The notes beneath the pieces are model-generated. The model saw only the letters and a list, made by a program, of their open reading frames with translations, was not told the DNA's origin and searched no databases. The position numbers and the translations under genes were made by a program. Source: Ophryocystis elektroscirrha (taxonomy: Eukaryota > Apicomplexa > Conoidasida > Neogregarinorida > Ophryocystidae). From it: 64,000 bases of DNA. How positions within the stretch are numbered: position 1 is the first letter of the stretch; each line of letters opens with the position of its first letter. Where the stretch lies: positions 186,001-250,000 of the forward strand of contig JAQIFP010000002.1 of the NCBI GenBank assembly GCA_030141585.1, in the 5' to 3' direction. Below are positions 5,056-44,518 of this stretch, piece by piece.

Positions 5056-6516
5056 TTAATAATTAATTAGACTTCTTTTTGCACACACTAATGCATTGAA
5101 TTCATTTTTTATTGATATCATCTGTATAATAGATATGTAAAATGCAAAAAAACTAATGATAACTTGAGAAAAACTTAATGCAAGCTTGAAATACCATTTG
5201 ACAGGTGGCATGAAAAACAGAGATCCTAAAATTACATATGACATAATACTTGCACCTATAATTAAATTCCATTTCAAGTTTATTGAAAACAGTTGTTTCA
5301 CTAATATTTTATCTGCAAATTCTAATGTATCTCTTAAATCGGATTTCTTGAATATACTACATTTGTTATAACAAAATAATGATTTCTCCATATTTATTTT
5401 TGTTATGTACTTTTCTTCTGGCAAAGACTTTTGTTCAGAGTTGACTTCAATCAATTCATAAGTATCATCACAAGAGCTGGAATAGTCGTTTCGAAATTCA
5501 TCAATTGTGTATTTAAGCTTCACAGTCAAAGCTTCATGATCTGAGTAACTTATTTTTTCGTTTGGAATCTTATTAGGAATTTCATGAGAATAACTCACGA
5601 TCTTCAGGTTATTCAATGTTTTTGCCCACACCCATATGTAATCAATCCTTGTTCCATTAAGAGGCTTACTATTTTTGCGGGTAAAAGAATTTGTCGATAA
5701 TCCACACGTGCCGTATACATTACTAACTTTTCCAGACTCCAAATATTTTTCGTATATCTTCCTAAACATTTTATTTGAAAGGCGCTGATTGCTTGGCAAT
5801 TCATCTATCATAAGCGTTTTCTGAGTCACAATTAATTCTCCTAGTAAGTTATTTTTTTGAACAATAGAGAATTTTTCGTCAACTTCAACATACAAAGTAG
5901 AATTGAAATATCTAGATTCCGCTAACATATAAGTGTCGTAAATATTTGCTGCTTTAGATAGTAGCTCCAGTAAAATATTGTAAGGTTCTGTATTTAAATC
6001 AGCCGCCAGAATAATCATTTCTGCCTTGTCTTTTAGTATTTTTATGATATCAATAAGTTGAATTATTTGATATAATCTATGAGGAGTATGTTTTATACTT
6101 TCTACATGTGTATGAGTATTTAGTATTATAAGTTCAAAATTTTTAGCTACCGTCAAAGAATTCAGTGAAAACCCTTTGCCACTAAATCGATCTCCATAAC
6201 AGATATTATGGTAGTAACCATTCGCTTCATATTTGGAAAAAAAACGCGTTTTTATTGGATACTGAGAAAAAATGCATAATCCTGAACCAACGGTCCCTGC
6301 TTCAAAATAATCCCCATAAGGAAATTTTGTGCATAATTCACTTTGTAAATAATTGTAATCATTGTGGGACCAAACTTCCTGTAAGCATACGACATTTACA
6401 TCACATTCGCGTAAATAGGCAGCTATAGCCTTTAGACGTAGATTTTTTTGCTGCGAAAAAAAACGCAGTAACCAGCAATTCCATGACAGTATTGATAAGG
6501 TATACTCAGTAGTCAT
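5056..6516 (-). CDS. Neutral sphingomyelinase (EEP-fold phospholipase C), SMPD2/ISC1-like
   Basis: Intronless, 486 aa. The N-terminal 320 residues carry the endonuclease/exonuclease/phosphatase catalytic motifs in order: SWNCW (Asn), CLQEVW (metal-binding Glu), GSGLCIFSQYPI, ILNTHTHVE, AADLNTEP (Asp/Asn) and the final YSDHEAL (catalytic Asp-His). The C-terminus has two predicted membrane helices separated by a short turn (about 418-436 and 446-466), as in animal SMPD2 and yeast ISC1. The family hydrolyses sphingomyelin and related sphingophospholipids to ceramide at membranes. An insert of about 80 residues (about 205-285) precedes the RIDYIW motif. It converges on the copy 2 membrane-protein gene, with stop codons 22 bp apart. 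Confidence 0.9.
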   Translation of the reverse strand: MTTEYTLSILSWNCWLLRFFSQQKNLRLKAIAAYLRECDVNVVCLQEVWSHNDYNYLQSELCTKFPYGDYFEAGTVGSGLCIFSQYPIKTRFFSKYEANGYYHNICYGDRFSGKGFSLNSLTVAKNFELIILNTHTHVESIKHTPHRLYQIIQLIDIIKILKDKAEMIILAADLNTEPYNILLELLSKAANIYDTYMLAESRYFNSTLYVEVDEKFSIVQKNNLLGELIVTQKTLMIDELPSNQRLSNKMFRKIYEKYLESGKVSNVYGTCGLSTNSFTRKNSKPLNGTRIDYIWVWAKTLNNLKIVSYSHEIPNKIPNEKISYSDHEALTVKLKYTIDEFRNDYSSSCDDTYELIEVNSEQKSLPEEKYITKINMEKSLFCYNKCSIFKKSDLRDTLEFADKILVKQLFSINLKWNLIIGASIMSYVILGSLFFMPPVKWYFKLALSFSQVIISFFAFYISIIQMISIKNEFNALVCAKRSLINY

Positions 6517-11973: not shown

Positions 11974-14160
11974 TTAGGTAGATAATGAGATGATTTTCTT
12001 CAAGAGTCTGATAGAATATATAGATTTATTGATAAGAACATTAACCATACATTTATGAAAAAGAAACAATAAATCTAAATAATTACTTGGAAATTTAAAG
12101 TCAGGGTTTGGAATAAATTCATCTTGAGCAAATATGAAAGATATAACATGAGATTTTATCCAGCTTCTTGCTAGTTCTTTATTCTTTTGTGAACCGGCTT
12201 TAAGAATGTAATCTCTGTACATATCATTCGAAACTATACAGCATCCTGAATGCTTTTTAGCATATTCAAGCATATAAGAATCATCGTAATCTTTAGAAGG
12301 TGTTAGTATAACTAAACCTTTTTCCACTAATCTACGAAGTGTATTAATATCATTAGGAGTTTTAGCTGGATTTACTTCCTGTTTCAATGTTTTGGCGGCA
12401 TACTTTATCTCTCCTACTTTATCGTAGCTGACTAAATGTTCTGGTACAAATGCAATAGCCTATGAGTAATTGAAGTTCATTTATAATTACTTTGCAACCT
12501 TGATTAATATAATAATATAAAGCTATCAAAATTCCTCTTGTACTAAATTGACGCTGCATAATGCCACCATATCGCATCGCTACATTGCTTCCATCAATTA
12601 AAACCATTTGCTTGACTATTTTACTAAATATAAACCAACGATATAAACAAGGACGATGTTCCAAGTAAATATCTGTGATGCTAACTGGCTTCACATCGTA
12701 ATCTGATTTTTGCATGTTAAATGCCATCTTCACGTATCTTCCATCTTTATAAAACCTCCAGTTGGGAATAAGACCAACTAACATCACGTCTTCATATGAG
12801 CATTCTAGTAAATCATTTAGATCACGGTTTAGCTTAAATTGCTTTTTATCTTTTGGAAATTCTATCCTATTTACATACCGTTTAAAATGTTGTAAAAAAT
12901 TTGCTGCTATAGGATCCCATAAGATTTCTAATGCAGTAAACCAAGATATTAAAATAGTCAAAAATGCTGGCAATTCAAAAGGTTTTTTTATGAATTGAAA
13001 CAAGGCTATACCATAATTGACTAGTTCGTTAATTAGGTTATGATAAAACGTTTTTTGAGAGTTGTCAATGTTTTTACAATCGTCGGAAACTGCGGTAATA
13101 AAGTATAAAAAGTATTGCCAATCTTATTATTCATATATAAATCATCATATATATATATATATATATATATCAATAAAACAGAACTAGTAAGCACTTAAAT
13201 TACCTATAGACGCAATGTTTGGTGGTAAATTAGAATAAAATTCCGCAGTGTCTTTTAAAACACTTTCAATTCCAGTATTATCAGTTGTAACGCTAAGATT
13301 GGCTAACTTAATTTTTTCAGTTATACTTGCGCCTTTTTGAATGATTTTAGACCATGATTTTGAGCACAAAATTAATATATATATCATTATTAAAGTGACT
13401 ATTAAAATATTAAGTTATTTTAGTGAGTATGTTACTTTTCTCATAATAAGAATGAGGTATCTGATCCAAATAATGTTCCCAGTTAAAATTTCGTATTGTT
13501 TTTGTATTATTTAAGTAAGAGCTTAAAATAGTACTAAAGTGTTCAAGTATTTCTGGAGAAAAATCGGGTATTGATGTATTTTTAATTGTTGTAATTAACA
13601 GAGATATGTCATTTTTAGAATGAAATACACTAAAATTGTTTATATAGTAAACTCTATTACCTTATTGCGTTTTGAAAGGAATGTACAATAACACATAATT
13701 GATCTTTATTTAAAACAGCCAATTGCATCATCTGATTATATGTATGACCCTCCTGTACAAAATTGCTATAAAGTTTATAATTACTCACAGATGGAAAACA
13801 AATTTGAGCACATTTATAATTGTGGTATGCATTTTTTAAGAACTTTTTCTGTTCATCATCTTGAGCTTCAATGGCGCAATATCGACAAAGATCACCCAGA
13901 ATGGTGTAAAGTATTGATTGAACATGTTTGCATTCTAATGAAGCATTGTTAGATTCAGCAGATTTTATATAATTATTAAAATGGTTGAATATACGGTCAT
14001 AATTTTGTAAAAGATATTTATGATCAAATGTGCATACTAATTGTAACCATAATACATTCAATAATCTTCCACTGACGGCATTAGGGAAGTGAACATTCAA
14101 TTCTTCCGAATAATTGTTTAGGGCACAATCAATGTCTTTTAACTCGAACTCTTCTTTCAT
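11974..14160 (-). CDS. EST1/SMG5-7-like TPR protein fused to a Regnase-type NYN ribonuclease domain
   Basis: Five exons: 14160-13661, 13629-13436, 13398-13204, 13122-12491 and 12459-11974. They splice to an exact 668-codon frame; three introns are 31-37 nt. The N-terminal half resembles the EST1/SMG 14-3-3-like TPR region: ILGDLCRYCAIE, then NAYHNYKCAQICFPS, then GHTYNQMMQLAVLNKDQ, then HSFQNAI. The C-terminal 240 residues are a Zc3h12a-type NYN/PIN-like nuclease: VLIDGSNVAMRYG, FSTRGILIALYYYINQG, AFVPEHL, TPSKDYDDSYMLEYAKK and CIVSNDMYRDYI, which retain the conserved Asp positions of active Regnase. SMG6 carries an EST1 region plus a different PIN domain, so an NMD-like decay role is an inference. 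The motifs are visible directly; the pairing is unusual. Confidence 0.82.
13147..13170. repeat. (TA)n microsatellite in intron
   Basis: TA run inside the third intron (13123-13203) of the EST1-NYN gene. Confidence 0.85.
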
Positions 14161-23220: not shown

Positions 23221-23991
23221 TGCTCTTGAATATGGTGTTTGTTATACTCTTAAACTCCACTTTGAAATTTGTTGAAATAATTGCTTCAGTACATTCAAAA
23301 AAAGTCATATAATGCTACTAAGCAGTTGGATATCAGTTACTGCATTGGTATCAATGTAAATTCATTTATATTGTGCAATGTAAATACTTGTTTCAAGCAA
23401 AAGATCAAACAGTGGTTTATAAAGTTGCTTTTAATTTATTTTAATTGATTATAAAAGAAATTTACTTTTACTACATTTAAGCATTTTTAATATTATTTTC
23501 CTAGATATATAATTTTAAAAATTGGTATCATGCCATTTTATATTATTTCCCTAAAAAATCTAAGCAGACAACTTTCGTACCTCTTGCTTCAAGTTCCAAG
23601 ACTTTAAGAAATATGGTTGAAATTTAATATATTTGATATATCGATTGGCTTAATTTCAAATTAAATAGTAAAAAAAATCTGTTAATGTATAATCACTCTT
23701 TCAGTTTTGGCAATAAAAGGTTTATCAAGTAATCTGATTCATAATGGTAATATCTAATTTTATTTAATGAAATAAACTTTTATTTCTTATAACTATCTTT
23801 TTGTAAAAAAATTTAGTTTGGGAAATATTAAAATATATTTCTTGAAGCATATGCTGGTACAAAATATACGTCAATATTAAGATTATTGGCACAAATAACA
23901 AAGATTTAAACAGTTTTTGAGTTGTCTAGATATTGTACATCAGGTTAGTTTAATTTTTTCGGGATTTAATTGAAGAGAAACCTAAGTACAG
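23221..23991. other. Intergenic, divergent promoter region
   Basis: AT-rich, between the hydrolase and the actin-like gene. No ORF, RNA gene or repeat was identified. Confidence 0.4.
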
Positions 23992-25206
23992 ATGTCTGAT
24001 AGCAGGAATGCAATTGTTCTTGATCTGGGTTCACACTCTTTTAAAGTAGGTTTAGCAAGTGAAGAGCCACCAAATAGTACGGTTCCTAGTATCTATGGTG
24101 TAGATGGGCACAACAATTTAGTTTTTGGCGAAAAAGCTTTAAGCTTAACTTCAGGCTATACGAAAATTTTTAATAATGGTACAATAACAGATTGGGATAT
24201 CTATGAAAAAGCTATGAAAAACTTAATAAATGAGGAATTGAAAATAAATAATATATCTGAGCATAATGTTTTACTTATAGAACCTGCATTGAATCCAAAA
24301 TTATCTCGGGAAAAGTTGGTACAAATTGCTTTTGAAGAATTTAATGTACCTGCACTACAAATTGCTGTACAACCCATTATGGGATTATATGCTACTGGTC
24401 GTACAACAGGAACGGTTGTTGATATTGGTGAAGACATTTGTCAAATACTGCCCATCATAGATGGTTTCGCACATTTACATCGTTGCGTCCGTGATCGACA
24501 TTATAGTTCAGCTGGTTTTGATATAACAAAGTTGTTGAAACATGATCTGACAAGTTCAAATTTTGATGTTGAGGGCAAGTATAAACCAAATTATTTTAAT
24601 AACTTTCCTTTCCATATAATTGAGGAAATAAAGCACAATCTGTGCTATGTTAAATACACAGAGTTTTCATCGCCAGATTCTTCTAATTTGATCAATGATG
24701 TGACTATGCAAGCGTGTGATACTGAAAAATTTTTGAACCAAGATGTAGTCGAGTATAAATTACCGGACGGTCAAAAACTTGAATTACCCACAGAGATATG
24801 CACAAATTGCACCGAAACACTATTCCAGCCTAAATTGCTGCATAAAGTTAAATATGAACAATCATCCAAAAGCTGCAGAGATTTGAGGGGACTTCATGTC
24901 AAAATATTTGAATGTATAGATAGCGTGAATCCTGTTGATTATTGGAAAAACTTATATTCTAATATTGTTCTAATAGGTGGCTCTACTATATTTAAAAACT
25001 TGTCTGAACGATTACATAAAGAAATGATACAACTGGCTCCTCCCACGATGCAAACAAATATTACTTGCTCAAAAAAAAATAAATTTACAACTTGGCTAGG
25101 TGGTGCAATATTAACAATGTTGGGTAGTTTTCACTCAATGTGGGTAACAGCTGCTGATTACAACGCAAACGGACCAACATTTATACATAGAAAAAGTCTT
25201 TTTTGA
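23992..25206 (+). CDS. Divergent actin-like / actin-related protein
   Basis: Intronless, 404 aa. It has the actin fold along its whole length: phosphate-1 loop VLDLGSHSFKVGLASEEPP, PSIYG, ITDWDIYEKAMKNLI, LIEPALNPKLSREKLVQIAF, phosphate-2 loop TGTVVDIGEDICQILPIIDG, NITKLL-like SAGFDITKLL, ETLFQPKLL, adenosine loop VLIGGSTIFKNLSERL, and the C-terminus TTWLGGAILTMLGSFHSMW ... GPTFIHRKSLF. Conventional actin has DSGDG at the phosphate-2 loop and DNG at the phosphate-1 loop; here they read DIGED and DLG, so ATP hydrolysis and polymerisation may differ. It is not close enough to ARP1, 2, 3, 4 or 6 for me to name a class; apicomplexan ALP1-type proteins are the nearest analogy. Confidence 0.88.
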   Translation: MSDSRNAIVLDLGSHSFKVGLASEEPPNSTVPSIYGVDGHNNLVFGEKALSLTSGYTKIFNNGTITDWDIYEKAMKNLINEELKINNISEHNVLLIEPALNPKLSREKLVQIAFEEFNVPALQIAVQPIMGLYATGRTTGTVVDIGEDICQILPIIDGFAHLHRCVRDRHYSSAGFDITKLLKHDLTSSNFDVEGKYKPNYFNNFPFHIIEEIKHNLCYVKYTEFSSPDSSNLINDVTMQACDTEKFLNQDVVEYKLPDGQKLELPTEICTNCTETLFQPKLLHKVKYEQSSKSCRDLRGLHVKIFECIDSVNPVDYWKNLYSNIVLIGGSTIFKNLSERLHKEMIQLAPPTMQTNITCSKKNKFTTWLGGAILTMLGSFHSMWVTAADYNANGPTFIHRKSLF

Positions 25207-41684: not shown

Positions 41685-44518
41685 ATGGTATCCAAACAGC
41701 AAATGAATAAATTAGTGTCTTCTTTCAATATGGCTGATGCTTCCCGAATTAAAGGGTTAGTAATTTGGACATCTAAAGCTCCAGAAATAACAGCCAATCC
41801 AGATAAGCTATATGCCAAGTGTGTTGTGTTACAAGGATCAACTGAGGTATCTTGAATGCAAATGCATAATCATTTAGAAATTATTGCGTGTTCGTCAAAT
41901 AGACCCTCCCAATGATCAAGTGAGTCAGCTGTGTACAGTCCATATGTTTATAAATTAAAAAAAATTACTATCAGTAATAAATTTTTTTTTTCTTTTTAGG
42001 AGTTTAGTATTACTAGAGCTGATGCGCTCAACTGTAATCAAAATATAGATCCATTAACATATGGAGATATCGGATCAATTCCTCACAAAAATCCACCTTG
42101 TGTTTTAGATTTTCTAAATGTTCGTTTCGTTAATAAAATGATTTATGTAAGTAATTTGTATGGGAATTAATGCTCTATAATCAGACTACTGTTGAACCCT
42201 TGCTTGTTGCCATCAATCCATTTATGGATTTGAAAAATACAACAGATGAAGTCATACAAAAATATAGAGATGCTCCAAACGTTGATCAATTACCACCTCA
42301 TGTATTTGTAAAAGCTCGGTTGGCTTTAGAAAATTTGTATTCAATAGAAAAATCACAATCGTTGATTGTATCAGGGGAATCCGGTGCAGGGAAAACTGAA
42401 GCTACTAAGCATATAATGAGATTTTTTGCTGCAGCTAAAACTAAAGGTCAAGAAAATGCCAAAATACAAGAAGCTGTATTAGCTGCAAATCCTTGCTTAG
42501 AAGCTTTCGGAAATGCTAAAACTATTAGAAATAACAACTCATCACGCTTTGGAAGATTTATGCAATTAGAAGTAACTCCCTCTGGAGGAATTAAATACGC
42601 TACAATTCAAAGTTTCCTATTAGAAAAAAGCCGCATTGTGACTCAATCACCAGAAGAAAGAAATTATCACATATTTTATCAATTACTTAAAAGCGCCGAC
42701 TCAAACATGAAGAAAAAATACCATTTAAAAACACTTAGTGATTATGAGTTCATAAATAAAGCTTGCATTGATGTCCCTTCTATCGTAATACTACTATTTA
42801 TAGTATTATAAATTTATTCATGATAATGATAATTTATTTAGTTGATTTGACTAAATAAAATTACTCTTGTGCGTACATATGTTTATAATTATGCACACAA
42901 TTAAATAGATTGCTTCAGAATGACGTTGAAGAATGGGGCTTAGTGATGAAATTTTTTAAAAGTATCAATTTGAAAACAGAGATTGTAGAGTCAATAATAT
43001 CCATGCTATCAGGCATTTTACACCTTGGAAATGTTGTTATTGAAGGAACAGATCACTCAGAAATTAAAAATAAAGAAGTCTTAGAAATAGCCAGCAATTT
43101 ATTATTTTTAGATGCTGAAAAAGTTGAAAAAAATATAGTACATAAGATATCTTATGTAGGTAACGAAGTCATCAGAGGAAACTGGAATAGAGCGGATGCA
43201 GAAGTATTGAAGCTTTCTTTAGCAAAAGTAATAATCATATAATTCGTGAAACTTATACTACTATTTTAACTGTATTTTTTGTATTATTTAATAAATGCAG
43301 TGTCTATATGATAAATTTTCTTGAATAATATTTTGTTTATATATAGTCAAAATATGTCTTTATCTTTAGGCTGTTTATGAAAGATTATTTTTCTATATCA
43401 TTCAAAAGCTGAATTTAGCAATAAAACCACCTCATGACTTCAAATTGTTTATTGGAATGTTAGATATATTTGGTTTTGAAATATTCAAAACGAATTCTTT
43501 GGAACAGTTATTCATTAATATAACTAATGAATTATTACAGCGCAGTTTTATTAACACTGTATTTGAAAAAGAAACAAAGTTGTATCAGTCGGAAGGAATC
43601 CAGTTTTCAAGTTTGAAATGGACAACAAATGTAGATATTATAAACGTTTTGATTGGAAGTAAACCATGTTTGATGTCGATATTGGAAGATCAGTGTTTGG
43701 TAGCTGGGTCACAAGATGAAAAATTTTTATCATCGGCTTATGATGTATTGAAGAAAAGCACTATATTTACTAAAGCAAAAGTACGCCCTGCGACCAATTT
43801 TTTGATAAATCATACAATTGGCCCAATACAGTACAGCTGTGAACATTTTTTAACGAAAAACAAAGATATTCTCCGTGCAGAATTCACAGAATTGCTCCAA
43901 TCTTCTTCAAATGAATTGGCGAGAGAATTATTTGCTGGAGTTGTTGTTGAACGTGGCAAATTAGCCAAAGGTCAACTGATTGGGTCTCAATTTTTAAATC
44001 AATTGAATTCTCTTATAAATATTATAAATTCAACGGAATCTCACTATATTCGATGCGTCAAGCCAAATGAAGAAAAAAAGCCTTTATTATTCAATAATGC
44101 TAAAGTATTGGTACAACTGCACGCTTTATCCGTATTGGAGGCCATTAACTTACGTAACTTTGGCTATTCATACCGAAGGACTTACAGCGAATTTGTCAAA
44201 CAGTTCCGTTATGTGAATGCCAATGCCTTTAATAAACTGGAAACTGATCCTAAACAAGCTGCCGAAATGATTTTACAATCTGCTAATCTTCCACCTCAAG
44301 GTGTAAGAATAGGAAAAACAATGATTTTCCTCACTAACTCTGCTTTAAAAGATATTGAGAAACAGCAGAGAAATGCTATTGCACATTACGCTCCTCTTGT
44401 AGAAGTTCTTGAACCCATGATTATTAGAAAAATGCGCTTAACGAAAATGCGAAACGCTTTACCTGGTCTTATACGCTTACAAGCTCACATTCGAAGAGTT
44501 ATAGCTTGCGCAGAATAA
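41685..44518 (+). CDS. Class XIV myosin heavy chain, MyoA-like
   Basis: About six exons starting MVSKQQMNKLVSSFNMADAS; the first intron (31 nt) follows KCVVLQGSTE. The motor motifs are intact: P-loop VSGESGAGKTEATKHIMRFF, switch I NAKTIRNNNSSRFGRFMQLE, switch II LDIFGFEIFKTNSLEQLFIN, actin-binding region NSLINIINSTESHYIRCVKP, converter and a short neck LTKMRNALPGLIRLQAHIRR ending ACAE. There is no SH3-like N-terminal barrel and no tail beyond the degenerate light-chain site, as in apicomplexan MyoA, which powers gliding as part of the glideosome at the inner membrane complex. Length is about 800 aa, as expected. It is tail to tail with the MyTH4-FERM myosin, 122 bp apart. Confidence 0.93.

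Follow-up and report, generated by a model that had tools for sequence, protein, structure and literature searches.

The window analysed here is a stretch of 64,000 nucleotides from Ophryocystis elektroscirrha. On its minus strand, from 14160 to 11974, lies a gene whose one predicted frame joins an EST1 (SMG5/6/7) half in front to a Regnase-type NYN half behind it. Elsewhere in the window there are a 486-aa frame with an endonuclease/exonuclease/phosphatase domain (5059-6516, minus strand; PF03372, 7.4e-19), an actin-family frame (23986-25203, plus strand; PF00022, 1.3e-84) and a myosin motor-domain frame (43370-44515, plus strand; PF00063, 5e-82). Just outside the window, at C2:182031-182693 on the plus strand, a MIF4G domain was found in a 1533-aa frame (3.1e-26), which is possibly eIF4G.

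Gene model and the joining of the two halves

All splicing of the window gene was predicted from the genomic sequence. With the introns of the sequence-only reading (13660-13630, 13435-13399, 13203-13123 and 12490-12460), its frame of 668 codons plus stop was recovered exactly, and the motifs that it had listed (IDGSNVAM, CIVSNDMYRDY, ILGDLCRY and YNQMMQLA) were all found within this frame. The frame of this five-exon model stands, but a probable in-frame intron of 36 nt in exon 1 had been overlooked and the acceptor at 13123 looks poor. For the intron that begins at 13203, the acceptor at 13090 (TTATTACCGCAG) keeps the frame as 13123 does, gives 657 aa if the 36 nt are not removed, and has the better-looking pyrimidine tract as judged by eye. 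Removal of the 36-nt stretch GTGAGT...TTTTGTACAG at 13788-13753 also keeps the frame, in phase 0, and leads to 645 aa. This stretch is probably an intron, and we accepted it because the model of a paralogous gene on contig C113, described below, has an intron at the matching place and in the same phase. The exon after it measures 92 nt in the window gene and in the paralogue model, and the BLASTP score of the N-half against the C113 paralogue increases from 60.5 to 67.0 bits, with equal settings, when the 12 codons are taken out.

We prefer a predicted model of six exons and 645 codons. Exon 1 (13789-14160) contains the start codon, the 14-3-3-like domain and the LGDLCRY motif including R93. 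It is followed by the probable 36-nt intron (13753-13788) and by exon 2 (13661-13752), in which EGHTYNQMMQLA lines up with the SMG7 helix PYNQLA. The middle region is encoded by exon 3 (13436-13629) and exon 4 (13204-13398), and the introns after exons 2, 3 and 4 are one of 31 nt in phase 2 (13630-13660), one of 37 nt in phase 1 (13399-13435) and one for which we prefer the acceptor CCGCAG (13090-13203). Exon 5 (12491-13089) encodes about 160 residues, including SYEDVMLVGLIPN, which we read as an LPEDxxLxGFxP-like EST1-family motif. The NYN domain then starts in this same exon (VLIDGSNVAM, with D450). After an intron of 31 nt in phase 0 inside this domain (12460-12490), exon 6 (11974-12459) supplies the remainder of the NYN domain, with D543, D544, D563 and D567 as well as NPDFKFP. 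The 37 C-terminal residues that follow NPDFKFP are less certain and have no counterpart in the aligned relatives. The introns at 13630-13660, 13399-13435 and 12460-12490 are all phase-matched in the C113 paralogue.

A neighbouring EST1-like gene and an NYN gene could have been wrongly joined by such a model, since it requires five predicted introns, one of them with two possible acceptors, and the bridging exon was ascribed to the SMG body solely through its LPEDxxLxGFxP-like motif. Against this, the single exon 13089-12491 spans the start of the NYN domain together with the residues ahead of it, the two halves recur in this order, with common intron positions, in the C113 paralogue, and P0001, P0002 and P0003 from a protein database are single predicted proteins that each bear both halves. 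In a further database protein, P0004 (439 aa), the first part of the SMG body is missing. We consider a false joining of two genes very improbable, and the predicted product combines an SMG5/6/7 body and a C-terminal NYN domain in one protein, as is the case for SMG6L.

Families of the two halves

The C-terminal domain of the window protein is matched by PF11977 (RNase_Zc3h12a) with E=2.3e-23 in a Pfam search with the single sequence, and structures of ZC3H12A-C and KHNYN in the PDB match the NYN half at 2e-9 to 2e-7. In the 645-aa numbering, acidic residues are present at D450 (IDGSN), D543 and D544 (YDDSY), D563 (SND) and D567 (RD); we assume these to be the metal-binding catalytic residues, with their roles taken from Regnase-1. 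The relatives also have in common a C-terminal stretch with an invariant W at its start and PNPDF..P at its end. Like the Regnase (ZC3H12) family, the window protein therefore has an NYN nuclease domain in which the acidic residues are conserved. In that family a CCCH zinc finger follows the NYN domain. Among the 6 Pfam families listed up to E=10 for the window protein there is no zinc-finger family, a KH domain was not found by Pfam, and PIN_4, the SMG6-type PIN domain, is not listed either. Hence the protein is like Regnase-1/ZC3H12A and KHNYN in its nuclease domain, and it differs from them in having an SMG body and neither a CCCH nor a KH domain by Pfam.

The N-terminal half falls below the Pfam cut-offs when taken by itself. 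For the window sequence alone there is no EST1 match above the Pfam cut-off, and the sole EST1 match has E=6.3 at residues 349-389. The sequence-only reading was to count as refuted if profile searches gave no EST1 match in residues 1-300. Taken literally, the single-sequence Pfam search had this outcome, whereas profiles built with relatives matched SMG6 and SMG7. We judge the single-sequence test too weak, because the profiles built with relatives reveal the kinship with SMG5/6/7. When a five-sequence profile of the N-half was compared with the PDB, the best 3 of 54 matches listed were human SMG6 (8.5e-10), human SMG7 (1.2e-8) and worm SMG-7 (7.6e-5), and the next match was a designed TPR at 9.5e-4. 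It is by these matches to SMG6, SMG7 and worm SMG-7 that the 14-3-3-like N-terminal body of the SMG5/6/7 family is recognized. A profile of the window and C113 sequences only gave SMG7 at 4.7e-5, with EBS1 (0.15) and SMG6 (0.2) below significance. When the N-half was shuffled 200 times, the highest score was 23.1, against 67.0 bits between the real N-half and the C113 paralogue. With a profile made from P0001-P0003 only, the window N-half alone reached a borderline 2.0 bits, and 1 of 300 shuffles was equally high. EST1_DNA_bind matched the N-half piece of C113 at 5e-4 and was not listed by Pfam for the whole C113 protein.

By motif, LGDLCRY of the window protein corresponds to GDIARY of SMG7, and R93 to SMG7 R163 as counted in the 1ya0 chain; the HMMER alignment itself is shifted at GDIARY. 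R93 is invariant in all five rows of our alignment. In excerpts of PMC6739308, R163 and K66 of SMG7 are reported to mediate the binding of phospho-UPF1, while SMG5 and SMG6 are without K66. Structure prediction, which had been proposed as a check, yielded for exon 1 a poor model (mean pLDDT 53.6) with mixed structural matches and is too weak to decide; residues 1-218 of the predicted model of P0001 resemble 14-3-3 proteins.

The domain reading made from the sequence, that of an SMG5/6/7 body plus a Regnase-type NYN domain in a candidate NMD endonuclease, is thus supported by domain and profile matches. It had also been assumed that no standard protein pairs an EST1 region with an NYN domain, and this is wrong. 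Tetrahymena SMG6L (Tian et al. 2017) is described as a protein of the SMG5/6/7 family that carries an NYN nuclease at its C-terminus, appears to act with UPF1 in NMD and is conserved in many other protozoa (excerpts of PMC6173133). The pairing is an already described protozoan SMG6-like design and not a new one.

A second gene with a degenerate active site

We searched the source genome of the window, which comprises 8.0 Mb in 118 contigs. PF11977 gave 3 matches: the window gene accounts for two of them, in separate exons, and the third lies on contig C113. This third match belongs to a second SMG5/6/7-NYN gene on the minus strand, at positions 6401-2447 of the piece C113:12500-21000, for which splicing was predicted with nine exons and 939 aa. 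Its protein has an N-terminal extension (KKDRPLYVPPQAR), an SMG-like body in which LGDVYRY, EGHLYSQWANLA and LTGFIPIP occur, and an NYN domain at the C-terminus; both halves match the window protein in the same order (1e-13 for the N-half and 2e-14 for the NYN domain). In the alignment of the two proteins, at least four intron positions are common and phase-matched: between FPS and EGH in the window protein and FPQ and EGH in the paralogue (phase 0), at QNAIS and RSCLS (phase 2), between YEK and I and between YCN and I (phase 1), and inside the NYN domain (phase 0). A fifth common intron in phase 1 is plausible, at a place where the alignment is weak. Just upstream of the paralogue, at positions 7566-7114 of the same piece and on the minus strand, we noticed a Cys/His-rich, CCCH-like open frame. 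When the genome was searched with the N-half of C113 (E<=10), the window and C113 genes alone were recovered; distant members could escape such a search.

The NYN domain of the paralogue keeps one of the five acidic residues (D802), and S, W, N and K stand at the positions of D543, D544, D563 and D567. The gene therefore encodes a protein with an SMG5/6/7 body and a degenerate nuclease active site, i.e. a predicted pseudonuclease. This second gene with the same layout was unexpected and may be new: as judged by titles and abstract openings, no description of a degenerate NYN paralogue of the SMG proteins was found among the papers listed by searches of a CC-licensed library, some of which were directed at other questions. 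The pair resembles the active SMG6 and the inactive SMG5 of animals. Like animal SMG5, the paralogue has a paralogous SMG body, a degenerate nuclease domain and an active sister alongside, and it differs from SMG5 in having NYN instead of PIN.

The paralogue suggests a division of labour, and it probably acts in the same pathway as the window protein. The odds are evenly balanced that the gene is decaying, or its product is a simple adaptor, and that the window protein acts alone. The loss of four acidic residues points in that direction, as do the last intron of the model (631 nt), which requires an unusual GTCATA donor, and the fact that the 7991 candidates scored included no relative of the paralogue at E<=0.1. 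On the other hand, the nine exons can be joined into a frame of 939 codons, the NPDFKFP tail and the N-half motifs are retained, and PF11977 still matches the protein at 1.5e-8.

A candidate endonuclease for nonsense-mediated decay

In the genome we found UPF1 (1.1e-53), UPF3 (3.7e-12), Mago (3.7e-20) and a UPF2-like frame (863 aa) in which MIF4G matches three times, once below the Pfam cut-off. The SMG6-type PIN_4 domain had no match in the genome when searched exon by exon, with a search control that was positive in 9 of 14 prokaryote genomes. The C-terminal exon of UPF1 is located in C97:59500-62700, and the intron that precedes it contains a run of N. No SQ/TQ dipeptide occurs in the 144 residues of this tail exon, while the 861-residue frame ahead of it has 8. 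Classical phospho-docking is doubtful for this reason, and if the organism is an alveolate, docking through SMG1-type phosphorylation is unlikely.

Our main reading, to which we assign a probability of roughly 0.8, is that the window gene encodes the SMG6-like (SMG6L) catalytic NMD endonuclease of the organism. It is based on the predicted frame that unites the two halves, on the families to which they belong, on the conserved active-site residues and on the UPF1, UPF3 and UPF2-like genes; from these sequences we infer the splicing, the RNA cleavage, the role in NMD and the docking on UPF1. The 14-3-3-like SMG5/6/7 body would dock on the UPF1 complex where a ribosome has stopped prematurely, probably not via phospho-SQ/TQ marks made by SMG1, and the C-terminal NYN domain, with its five presumed metal-binding acidic residues in place, would cut the mRNA nearby. 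The protein is like animal SMG6 (EST1A) in its EST1/SMG body and in a C-terminal nuclease of the PIN-like superfamily, and SMG6 is also the best PDB match of the N-half among those listed. The nuclease domain of SMG6 is a PIN domain, whereas the one here is an NYN of the Zc3h12a type. The likeness to Tetrahymena SMG6L lies in the SMG5/6/7 body, the C-terminal NYN and the presence of UPF1, and was drawn from its description rather than its sequence; a difference is that a Mago gene is present here, while the NMD targets of Tetrahymena are reported to have no dependence on Mago (excerpts of PMC6173133).

Several results count against the SMG6L reading: the single-sequence Pfam search without EST1 above the cut-off, the borderline 2.0-bit profile score, the poor model of exon 1, the UPF1 tail exon, and the NMD machinery of P. 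falciparum, which is reported in excerpts of PMC10449492 to be inefficient and non-essential. A real fusion protein may also work outside NMD, e.g. as a Regnase-like regulator of certain mRNAs or at telomeres like yeast EST1. Regnase-1 decay is dependent on UPF1 and translation and yet is described as a separate pathway (excerpts of PMC6426291), SMG5/6/7 relatives function at telomeres too (excerpts of PMC6173133), and the UPF1 tail without SQ/TQ agrees with such a role as well. Nevertheless, those excerpts of PMC6173133 describe the identically built Tetrahymena protein as acting with UPF1 in NMD, the UPF genes are in the genome, and a Regnase-style CCCH finger is not found by Pfam, so we hold a function outside NMD to be unlikely.

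Beyond the SMG6L reading, we put forward a conjecture about the pair by analogy with animals. The inactive PIN domain of human SMG5 was reported in 2026 to complete the active site of SMG6 in a composite nuclease (excerpts of PMC12923823); the words NYN, protist, ciliate, SMG6L, protozoa and alveolate do not occur in the main text of that paper. An SMG5/6/7 ancestor that already bore an NYN domain may have been duplicated into a catalytic copy (the window gene) and a pseudonuclease copy (the C113 gene), whose NYN domains would together make up a composite endonuclease for NMD at UPF1, convergent with the SMG6-SMG5 PIN pair of animals and built from another nuclease subfamily. This is tentative, and we give it clearly less than even odds.

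The fusion itself adds one more genome to a known protozoan family of NMD nucleases. The active/inactive pair of NYN proteins matters more, and it yields a directly testable prediction. If true, such a parallel pair would suggest that evolution split an NMD nuclease into a catalytic half and a completing one on more than one occasion.
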